Of a stretch of DNA of 64,000 bases, positions 10,218-17,466 are shown one piece after another. The notes beneath the pieces were generated by a model. It saw only the letters and a list, made by a program, of their open reading frames with translations, was not told where the DNA came from and did no database searches. The DNA is from Muribaculaceae bacterium. Its GTDB lineage: Bacteria; Bacteroidota; Bacteroidia; Bacteroidales; Muribaculaceae. The DNA is taken from NCBI GenBank assembly GCA_023664185.1, contig JAMPGA010000001.1, positions 746,262 through 810,261 on the forward strand, written 5' to 3'. Within the stretch, counting starts at the first letter, position 1. Every line of letters starts with the position of its first letter. A program made the position numbers and the translations under genes.

Positions 10218-11222
10218 TTACATTATGCGGATGCTCTTGTGTTTGTTGCGGTTTTTCTCGGAGAAGTCGAGTTTAAGGTTGTAGCCGGCAAAGACCTCGT
10301 GGCTGCCCGACGAGGCTTTGGAGATGTCGGAGATGTGGTAGTCATAGCTGTAGCCTATGAATATTCCCTTTATCTCAGCCGACAGCAGCAGCGAGACGGC
10401 ATCGTTGTGACGGTAGCCCACGCCGGCTGTGAAGAGTTTGTTGTAACGCACACGTCCGGTCACGGCAAAGTCGGTAAAGGTGAAGTCGCTGCGCACCAGA
10501 ACGGAGGGTAACACTTCAAATAACGTGTTGCGAACCGGAATATTGCCCTCGGCGGTGAAATAGAGGGTGCGGTTAGCTGTAAATTGATATTTTTTAGCAG
10601 TTTCAGAGTTTGTTGTGCCCGTCTGGGAGTCGTTCTCGTCGGAAAAGGTCACTGTGGGGGAGTTGGCGTGGAGCAGCGACACTCCGGCCTTGAAGTATTT
10701 GTGCACGTAGTATACGCCCAGCCCGAGGTCGAGGGCATTGCCGGCCACGTCGCGCTGCGGTATGGCGTCGTCGGCACTCTGGTGATAGTCATCGTCGTCG
10801 GGGATATAGACTTCCGAGCCTTTGAACTGCTCGTTGAAGAAACCCACCTGCAGGGCGGCTGTAAACTCACCCTTGAGCAGCTTGATCTTGTAGCCTATCT
10901 GGGCATCGACGGTGAGGTTGCGAAACAGTCCGTAAGATTCCTGCTGCACGGTGAGGCCGGTGCCGAAACGCTTGCCAAGGAAGCGGAAGGGCATGTCGGC
11001 GGCAGCCAGAAAGGTGCGCGGAGCATTGTCGATGCCCACCCACTGCATGCGCATACCGCCGCGCAGACGTATGTTGTCGGTGTCGCCGGCGGCGCCGGGA
11101 TTATAATATGTGGGCACGGCCCAGTATTGTGTGAGCATGGCATCGCCCTGAGCCCGGAGCGCAGGGACTGAGGCAGCCACACACAGAAGGGCACACAGTA
11201 GTCTGAGCAAGGTTTTCATCAT
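10218..11222 (-). CDS. porP: PorP/SprF family type IX secretion outer-membrane protein
   Basis: Outer-membrane beta-barrel of the PorP/SprF family, which helps cargo reach the surface and interacts with the GldK ring. The signal peptide is followed by the family start AQGDAMLTQYWAVPTYYNPGAAG. The rest has alternating short aromatic beta strands and recurrent family phrases such as LDLGLGVYYVHKYFKAGVSLLH. Length 334 residues. The gene starts inside the porT stop (ATGA overlap), and the order porP-gldK-L-M-N matches known T9SS operons. Confidence 0.9.
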   Translation of the reverse strand: MMKTLLRLLCALLCVAASVPALRAQGDAMLTQYWAVPTYYNPGAAGDTDNIRLRGGMRMQWVGIDNAPRTFLAAADMPFRFLGKRFGTGLTVQQESYGLFRNLTVDAQIGYKIKLLKGEFTAALQVGFFNEQFKGSEVYIPDDDDYHQSADDAIPQRDVAGNALDLGLGVYYVHKYFKAGVSLLHANSPTVTFSDENDSQTGTTNSETAKKYQFTANRTLYFTAEGNIPVRNTLFEVLPSVLVRSDFTFTDFAVTGRVRYNKLFTAGVGYRHNDAVSLLLSAEIKGIFIGYSYDYHISDISKASSGSHEVFAGYNLKLDFSEKNRNKHKSIRIM

Positions 11223-11944
11223 TCGAAGTAGAAGGTAAACACCACCATGCGCGACATGGCTTTCTTAAGCGAGCGCGATATCTTTATCTTGTCGGGCTCG
11301 TCCTGAAGGTCGGGGCGGTCGTGCTGAATCACATCCGAGAGGCCGAAACAGAACTTCACCTCGGGGATAAACTTGAAGTAAGGCAGATAGAAGTCGCAGC
11401 CAAATCCGGCGGTGAGGAAAAATTCCATCGGCTTGGTGCGCAGATAGTCGGCTTTCTTGACCGTGACGTTGAAGGCCGGCATGACTCCGGCGGTGAGATA
11501 GGGTCGCGAGTTGTGGAGGCGCATGCCCGAGAATTTGAGATCGAAGGGGAACACTACATAGGCGGCCTTGACATTCTGGCGCAGCTCCTCACCGGTGTTG
11601 AACTCGCGCATGGTCACGTCGCGGTTGCCGAAATACATGCCGGGTGTGAAGCGCAGGTTGAACAGAGAGCTGAGGCGGAAGTCGATGAGGCCGTTCACGC
11701 AGAAACCGGGCGAGAAGGATGGTTGCTCCATATACCACTCCTCACCGTTGTCCAGGGGGCCGGCATGGGTGAAGATGAAGTCCTGTGTGTGGAGCCCCAC
11801 CGAGAAGCCCAGGTGCCAGCGGCGCATGTCGGCATAGGGGCGGTTGAGCACCTTGTCGTTGAAGCCCTGGGCAGCGGCGCCGAAGGTAGCAACCATGGTC
11901 ACCAGCAGCAAGAGTCTGTGATATGATTGTAGAAGCCGGTTCAT
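11219..11944 (-). CDS. porT: PorT-like outer-membrane beta-barrel protein (T9SS)
   Basis: 241-residue protein with an N-terminal signal peptide ending near AAAQG and a small outer-membrane barrel pattern that ends in an aromatic-rich strand (VVFTFYFE). Conserved PorT-like phrases are visible: RRWHLGFSVGLHTQDF, RFTPGMYFGNRD and FKFIPEVKFCFGLSDV. PorT is required for T9SS maturation in Porphyromonas. It is the first gene of the operon and overlaps porP by 4 bp. The start codon lies only 6 bp from the terminal repeat of a MITE, so native upstream signals have probably been displaced. Confidence 0.85.
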   Translation of the reverse strand: MNRLLQSYHRLLLLVTMVATFGAAAQGFNDKVLNRPYADMRRWHLGFSVGLHTQDFIFTHAGPLDNGEEWYMEQPSFSPGFCVNGLIDFRLSSLFNLRFTPGMYFGNRDVTMREFNTGEELRQNVKAAYVVFPFDLKFSGMRLHNSRPYLTAGVMPAFNVTVKKADYLRTKPMEFFLTAGFGCDFYLPYFKFIPEVKFCFGLSDVIQHDRPDLQDEPDKIKISRSLKKAMSRMVVFTFYFE

Positions 11945-11950
11945 TTGTTA

Positions 11951-12308
11951 GAGTGTGTCTAATAAAGGGTGTTAACGCGTAGGGTTCATGTTATGAGATG
12001 TATTTATCGATGCAGTTTCAGGAGTGTACTGGATGTACACGACTGAAACAAAGCGATAAAGACATCCATAGCATGAAGTCAAATCATTCTTTCTTTCCGC
12101 GTCATTTAGCCTCATAAGACTTTTGTAAATTATAAAATGTTGTTTTAACGAGTGTGAATTAACGAAAGTTACCTCGGTTCGGCCACTCTTTGCCGCTTTT
12201 TGCCTAACTCTTCGGTCATGTGGCTACTGCCACACTCTCTCATCGTTAGACAAAAATCGTCTAAAGATTGGCCGCCCTACGTGTTAACATCCTTTATTAG
12301 ACACACTC
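11951..12308. mobile_element. Miniature inverted-repeat transposable element (MITE), 358 bp
   Basis: Long terminal inverted repeats: 11950-11984 matches the reverse complement of 12275-12309 at 33 of 35 positions. The ends read GAGTGTGTCTAATAAAGG. Both sides are flanked by TTA (11948-11950 and 12309-12311), a plausible 3-bp target duplication. No transposase frame is present, so it must be mobilised in trans. TNA-type 3-bp duplications are known for subgroups of the IS5 family, so an IS5-like parent is possible. It also contains a large nested hairpin. It lies between DUF4834 and porT. Confidence 0.8.
11985..12077. repeat. 93-nt nested hairpin inside the MITE
   Basis: Arms pair in register: TTCATG (11985-11990) with CATGAA (12072-12077), TTTATCG (12003-12009) with CGATAAA (12054-12060), GTTTCAG (12015-12021) with CTGAAAC (12043-12049), and TGTAC (12025-12029) with GTACA (12035-12039). 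Small internal loops separate these blocks. The structure would form in DNA or in RNA of either strand. Confidence 0.8.
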
Positions 12309-12359
12309 TTAACGCAATAAACTGCCGATTTATTGTGTCATTGTGCCGGCTTCGGTGTT

Positions 12360-12698
12360 CTAACGGGGATCAATCTCTTCCCATTCGGCGTCGGATACCT
12401 GTGGCTCCATGGGAGTGTGTTTTGTGGGCGGAGGGGGTGGAAGGGGGATGTCGATCTCCTCAAATTCAATATATTCACCTTCGTCGCGGCCATATATTTT
12501 GCCACGGCGGGGGGCATGGTGGCTTTGTTGGGGAGCTGCCCCGGAGCGGGGTGCGGAGTTGCCGCTCATGCCAAACATCTCGTTGATGCGCTCCTCCATC
12601 TTGCGTCGTGCATAGCGCGCGAGCCATGCCCTCAGCAGAGGCCACAGCAGATAGACCGTCAGATAGACGATGAGTATTGTCAGAAAGAATGTGATCAT
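12360..12698 (-). CDS. DUF4834 family small membrane protein
   Basis: 112 residues. One strongly hydrophobic N-terminal segment (about residues 2-24) is followed by a basic stretch (RARYARRKMEERINEMFG-like), a Pro-rich linker with a run of six prolines, and an acidic C-terminus (VSDAEWEEIDPR). The N-terminal anchor plus the YIEFEEIDI-type tail is what I recognise as DUF4834. No biochemical role is known to me. It lies 12 bp after pssA and is probably co-transcribed with psd-pssA. Confidence 0.75.
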   Translation of the reverse strand: MITFFLTILIVYLTVYLLWPLLRAWLARYARRKMEERINEMFGMSGNSAPRSGAAPQQSHHAPRRGKIYGRDEGEYIEFEEIDIPLPPPPPTKHTPMEPQVSDAEWEEIDPR

Positions 12699-17102: not shown

Positions 17103-17424
17103 AGTCGAAAAGTGTTAAGAGCTGCAAAGTTAAGCCTATTTTCCCGGCCACGTGGTATTTAGTGGCTTAAAAGTTTATAAACGTTAACATTTCATCGCAA
17201 ACTGCACACTCCTGTTAACATTTTTCAACACAATCGAATGGGGAAAATTGAGAATGATTGAGAGTTGAGAGTTCATCTCTCAGTCCCTGATATTCAGATT
17301 TACTCCTTAATTGTTAATCACTGTTAAAATCATACTCGTATCCGAACCTTTTGGGAGTGTCGAATGTTATAATAATGTAGTTACTATATTTGCACTGTGT
17401 TTTCATGGTATTAGATTTAAGGTT
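17103..17424. other. Intergenic region without a gene
   Basis: AT-rich spacer between the acyl-CoA ligase promoter and the terminator of the xylose/eda operon. It contains a short run of GAGAGTTGAGAG-type repeats near 17250-17283 and a TATATTTG motif on the plus strand (17385-17392) that could start a very short RNA ending at the adjacent terminator. The frame at 17311-17532 runs through the terminator and is not credible as a gene. Confidence 0.5.
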
Positions 17425-17466
17425 AAAAAAAAACGGGCCGTCGAGATGACGGCCCGTTTTTTGTTT
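17425..17466. terminator. Bidirectional terminator of the xyl/eda operon
   Basis: ACGGGCCGTC at 17433-17442 pairs with its complement at 17448-17457, flanked by an A-run on the left and a T-run on the right. On the minus strand it lies 14-55 bp downstream of the eda stop and would end the operon. It could also stop plus-strand transcripts. Confidence 0.9.

Follow-up and report, generated by a model that had tools for sequence, protein, structure and literature searches.

The window, i.e. the whole stretch of 64,000 nucleotides analysed here, corresponds to C7:746262-810261 in a Muribaculaceae genome of 2.12 Mb in 15 contigs. It includes porT (PorT/SprT; 11219..11944, minus strand), an open reading frame matching NCBIfam NF052311 (E 2.4e-68), which is the first gene of porT-porP-porK. 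All three genes lie on the minus strand and are full-length, with family matches far above cut-off. Upstream of porT, on the same strand, the annotation places a DUF4834 gene (12360..12698, minus strand). Between these two genes lies an element of 358 bp (11951..12308), which stops 6 nt upstream of the porT ATG (11944, minus strand), where a preliminary description of this DNA had put it. Elsewhere in the window, positions 17397-17466 match the Bacteroidetes sRNA family BTncRNA_FopS (Rfam RF04319, 70 bits).

The element upstream of porT and its copies

The element is bounded by an inverted repeat (11950-11984 / 12275-12309) that is 94% complementary over 35 nt, in agreement with the 33/35 matches reported before. 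The outermost pair of this repeat is part of the flanking TTA. Hence, the ends proper have 34 nt, with 32/34 matches, at 11951..11984 (plus strand, porT side) and 12275..12308 (minus strand), and the element itself is 11951-12308. The TTA that had been noticed on both sides is a target-site duplication of the TNA type, at 11948..11950 on the porT side and at 12309..12311 on the far side. Eighteen nucleotides of the end occur twice in the window, against 0.02 occurrences expected. When up to three mismatches are allowed, the end has 30 sites in the genome and the reversed control pattern none. Folded as single-stranded DNA, 11951-12308 reaches -88 kcal/mol (z = -14.9). Among the ORFs of the window, none resembling a transposase was found inside the element.

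The window genome carries 11 two-ended copies of this family, ten of them in addition to the one next to porT: three of 358 bp, five of 280-301 bp, two of 188 bp and one of 67 bp. Their identity to the window copy is 90-96%. Most have matching TTA, TAA or TGA flanks, the two with non-matching flanks being at C8:218470 and C14:30772. The size classes result from the deletion of hairpin blocks at element positions 34-124, 239-317 and 252-308. The two 188-bp copies, at different loci, have the same double loss, with both hairpins gone, which suggests that a hairpin-less copy could still move; recurrent deletion is a possible alternative origin. Short, with 34-bp ends matching at 32/34 positions and no transposase, flanked by a duplication, dispersed in copies and missing from the orthologous site of a relative, the sequence at 11951-12308 is a MITE, i.e. 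a non-autonomous IS5-type transposon, as the preliminary description had it.

One might see in 11951-12308 a conserved regulatory leader of porT and not a mobile element, since its fold is very stable and its hairpins covary (see below). Yet, the element is absent from all 25 congeneric porT upstream regions examined, and its ten further copies lie at other loci, mostly with TNA duplications. The empty sites in relatives rule out such a leader, which the preliminary description had named as the finding that would speak against a mobile element, and we give it practically no credence.

Solo ends were also observed. These are TNA-GAGTGTGTCTAATA copies, one with GAGTATGTC, at position 1501 of five loci (L014, L024, L025, L027 and L029), with no second end within the ~1.5 kb examined on each side. 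Some solo ends sit exactly at gene starts or stops. Mini-MITEs of ~170-180 bp (L050, L183 and L176) consist of two ends flanking one hairpin.

An IS5-type parent

An IS5-type parent had been suggested for the element, and the genomes of relatives support it. The congeneric genome G003 contains a complete IS of 1124 bp (L043 473-1596; L043/L121) with TAA on each side and an end related to that of the MITE (GAGCCTGTCCCATAATAAATGTTAACGC). Its transposase of 251 aa matches PF01609, PF13340 and NF033580 ('IS5 family transposase', E 4e-52). The complete ISs of relatives (L043/L121, L131, L124, L126 and L127) measure ~1.1 kb and have 34-35-bp ends and TNA, and more complete or decayed elements with 34-35-bp ends occur in other Muribaculaceae/Bacteroidales genomes. 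TNA (TAA, TTA, TCA or TGA) precedes 51 of the 54 ends collected. A full IS with the same ends was thus found as regards end architecture and IS5 transposase, but the exact end sequence differs from that of the window MITE. In diverged families of congeneric genomes both ends have been altered together (GAGTGTGTCTCATAA; GAGGGTGTTTAATAA). MITEs with the G003-type end are also present in the window genome. The exact end pattern had no match in genomic-contig and viral-contig collections, and a distant blastn search against plasmids gave none.

No IS5 transposase (PF01609 or P0001 match) was found in the 15-contig assembly of the window genome. One contig (C4, at L014) breaks ~50 nt into an IS-like end, TTAGAGGTTGTTTAAAAATAATTG (also given as TTAGAGGTTGTTTAAAAATAATTGTTAATAG), beside a solo MITE end. 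Repeats, an IS5-type element included, are therefore probably missing from the assembly, and with 15 contigs and this break the transposase may be missing from the assembly only. A transposase gene in the same genome is not a defining feature of MITEs.

Paired hairpins at the ends of the elements

Intact ends carry an imperfect hairpin of ~100 nt, oriented inward at both ends of the element, whose inner motif GGAG...GACYGA starts 68-70 nt from the terminus. Next to porT, the left hairpin (11983..12086, plus strand, antisense to porT; G000:C7:758244-758347) scores 67 bits with the covariance model R1. The right one (12172..12275, minus strand, sense in the porT transcript; G000:C7:758433-758536) scores 92 bits, which is the best R1 score in the genome, its own sequence being among the R1 training sequences. 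The preliminary description of the element did not include these hairpins. Their own arms fold at -45.3 kcal/mol, versus -28.8 for arms exchanged between elements, and no exchanged partner was as good in 22 of 27 hairpins. Over 25 ends, 92.2% of the pair cells are standard pairs, against 65.2% when shuffled and 36-46% when slid, and covariation is very strong, with compensated changes in 29 of the 32 base pairs.

The R1 hairpin is present in 40 of 101 relatives (38 from the window's own family, the other two from different families within the order), with dozens of copies in some of them; a sample of 246 further genomes from the rest of the phylum had none. Most of the 30 hairpin loci checked sit directly behind a TNA-plus-end sequence. 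Rfam, searched at gathering level, has no family matching the element, and at E<=5 it gave only chance-level matches. Hairpin-ended IS5 elements from Muribaculaceae are not described in the part of the literature covered. The hairpin family is widespread and, judged from Rfam and from this partial literature, seems to be undescribed. This covarying hairpin, for which Rfam has no entry, is a mark of each end in an IS5 subgroup, whose elements depend on a DDE transposase for their movement.

These elements share with the IS5 family (NF033580; PF01609 and PF13340) the transposase family and the three-base TNA duplication of their autonomous relatives. Unlike the family at large, which also includes short-ended members without hairpins, IS5 elements of the window type have 34-35-bp ends and covarying hairpins of ~100 nt, with a motif fixed 68-70 nt from the terminus. 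In P. gingivalis, the ends of BrickBuilt, MITE464/PgRS and MITE239/700 match the full-length IS5-family elements ISPg1, 3, 4 and 9 (PMC4596501). Like the window family, these MITEs belong to Bacteroidales and have IS5-type ends; some of them start with GAG (PMC4596501). Their ends have 11-22 nt, versus 34 nt plus a hairpin module in the window family, and BrickBuilt and PgRS consist internally of tandem repeats. Paired subterminal hairpins, present in the window family, are not among the features described in the passages covered.

Covariation shows either that what matters is the single strand in its folded form or that a mutational process keeps the palindromes, and the invariant unpaired motif favours selection over mutational upkeep. 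A role connected with the termini would fit the fact that the hairpin stands at each end of the element in the same orientation. The 188-bp copies, which look mobile but have lost the hairpins, speak against a cis function that transposition cannot do without, and the idea that the hairpins are essential transposase-binding sites is weakened by these two copies. The bulge in the hairpin had raised the idea of an integron attC-like site, which was rejected, since the hairpins are located within the ends of ISs, on either side of a DDE transposase. It is conceivable, though we put this forward tentatively and with more doubt than confidence, that the hairpins are an undescribed structured nucleic-acid family regulating this Bacteroidales IS5 subgroup, whose MITEs, by inserting between core promoter and start codon, provide host genes (in this case the T9SS operon) with such a structured leader. 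For instance, the hairpins might fold in transcripts entering the element and limit transposase expression.

The promoter-like motif of porT and the predicted leader

On the far side of the MITE lies an intact promoter-like motif, CAATAA-N15-CGTTA (12310..12335, minus strand), with CAATAA at 12335-12330 and CGTTA at 12314-12310. It is conserved in relatives: CAATAW-N14-15-CGTT occurs in the 125 nt that precede the aligned start of porT at 22 of 25 congeneric loci, against a mean of 0.05 and a maximum of 2 in shuffled controls, and the remaining three loci have variants recognised by eye. The ATG follows 3-11 nt downstream of the motif in the relatives' porT loci. We regard this motif as the likely promoter of porT, with a spacing that looks ECF-like. 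The porT gene of P. gingivalis is under the control of SigP, an ECF factor, and of PorX (PMC4800418, PMC8265659); the published SigP motif of that species differs from the motif found here (PMC4800418). Transcription of porT from the upstream pssA-DUF4834 genes may also be conceived.

The closest relative, G022 (PorT 87-88% identity), has the gene order pssA-DUF4834-porT-porP of the window, with 84, 61, 87 and 91% identity respectively. Its DUF4834-porT gap has 31 nt, carries no MITE, and contains CAATAA-N15-CGTT ending 9 nt before the ATG. A MITE-free porT site is found in G022 and in other congeneric genomes, G022 being a separate species and not one of the strains that the preliminary description had envisaged for the comparison. 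Because the insertion TTA overlaps the end of CGTTA, the promoter side retains an intact copy, and with this copy directly beyond the MITE, the latter separates the predicted promoter from the porT start codon. The promoter had been expected inside or beyond the element: the conserved motif supports a position beyond it, whereas no exact motif is found inside on the porT-facing strand.

A second insertion parallels that at porT. The 188-bp copy at C8:218470 (positions 1501-1688 of L011, G000:C8:216970-219987) has the -7 box TACATTTG on one side and, on the other, the ATG with which a gene for 442 aa begins. The G022 and G021 orthologues of this gene have TAAATTTG, then the ATG after 6-7 nt, the G022 orthologue (L196) being near-leaderless. 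Promoter box and start codon thus appear to have been separated by a MITE copy there as well. In a third case, the copy is 12 nt upstream of a TrmH-type RNA methyltransferase-like gene (named by eye), and for three of the 11 copies a predicted start codon is no more than 12 nt away. MITE insertions are common, and the event at porT, the arrival of an IS5-type MITE, is of an ordinary kind. Its place is informative, however: the promoter motif is intact, a relative shows the site empty, and there is a parallel insertion at a second gene. This makes it a precise natural experiment, in which one can directly test how a transposon leader affects a secretion operon.

From the observed element, its copies, the empty site, the conserved motif, the parent type and the hairpin covariation, we think it quite probable that an IS5-type MITE lies between an intact porT promoter and the start codon and forms a leader of ~359 nt. 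An IS5-family transposase acting in trans would have cut the 34-bp ends and inserted the element at a TTA before porT. This TTA would have overlapped the end of the -10-like CGTTA, which the TNA duplication would have preserved. The original promoter would still be directed at porT, with its start now shifted just into the MITE, by a few bases. Assuming that transcription begins some seven bases downstream of CGTTA, at ~12303, the predicted leader (11945..12303, minus strand, ~359 nt) would be nearly all MITE RNA, where the ancestral porT mRNA would have been nearly leaderless. The leader and the first part of porT fold at ~-151 kcal/mol, with paired ends and partly unpaired bases around the AUG. 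In this predicted structure each half of the leader would form one large hairpin and the end stem would close ~10-13 nt before the AUG. The most likely outcome, with the AUG left partly open, is that porT translation would continue in an altered, probably reduced or conditional, manner. Of the leaders predicted in Flavobacterium, 87% are longer than 10 nt, and initiation of translation is less efficient there when the region of the start codon is structured (PMC6847099), so both the short ancestral and the long new porT leader would be unusual.

Promoters are carried by many bacterial MITEs, e.g. Correia and BrickBuilt (PMC10969869), and the element might drive porT from an outward promoter of its own, which would make the old promoter beyond it irrelevant. 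The proximity of three copies to start codons and a CGTTA within the MITE end (11977-11973) are in line with this. Yet, the porT-facing strand of the element has neither TAnnTTTG nor CAATAW-N-CGTT, its only -7 boxes have one mismatch, the nearest being ~105 bp before the ATG, and directly beyond the element the native core promoter has been kept, at porT as well as at the C8 site. We consider an own promoter unlikely; a housekeeping TAnnTTTG promoter facing porT was rejected, with no exact match on that strand. The insertion might also silence the T9SS operon through leader structure or premature termination, as the stable fold of the leader with the start of porT and the effect of start-codon structure in Flavobacterium would suggest. 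But porT, porP and porK show no sign of truncation, matching their families well above cut-off, and the start codon is outside the end stem and partly unpaired, which makes silencing, in our judgement, unlikely as well.

A MITE between promoter and start codon, as we propose for porT, recalls Neisseria gonorrhoeae, where a Correia element between the mtrCDE promoter and the gene has a measured effect on transcription, via an IHF site (PMC10969869). In both cases the MITE closely follows the promoter, at porT a predicted one, of an operon for transport. Yet, Correia acts through its IHF site, whereas the window MITE is predicted to be the whole 5' leader.

The strict form of the motif, ACAATAW-N14-16-CGTTA, has only three sites in the window genome. 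At L173 (G000:C7:453471-453497), ACAATAW-N-CGTTA is separated by 7 nt from the ATG of a gene whose product looks, by eye, like a secreted C11 peptidase, and the porT motif may therefore define a small regulon.
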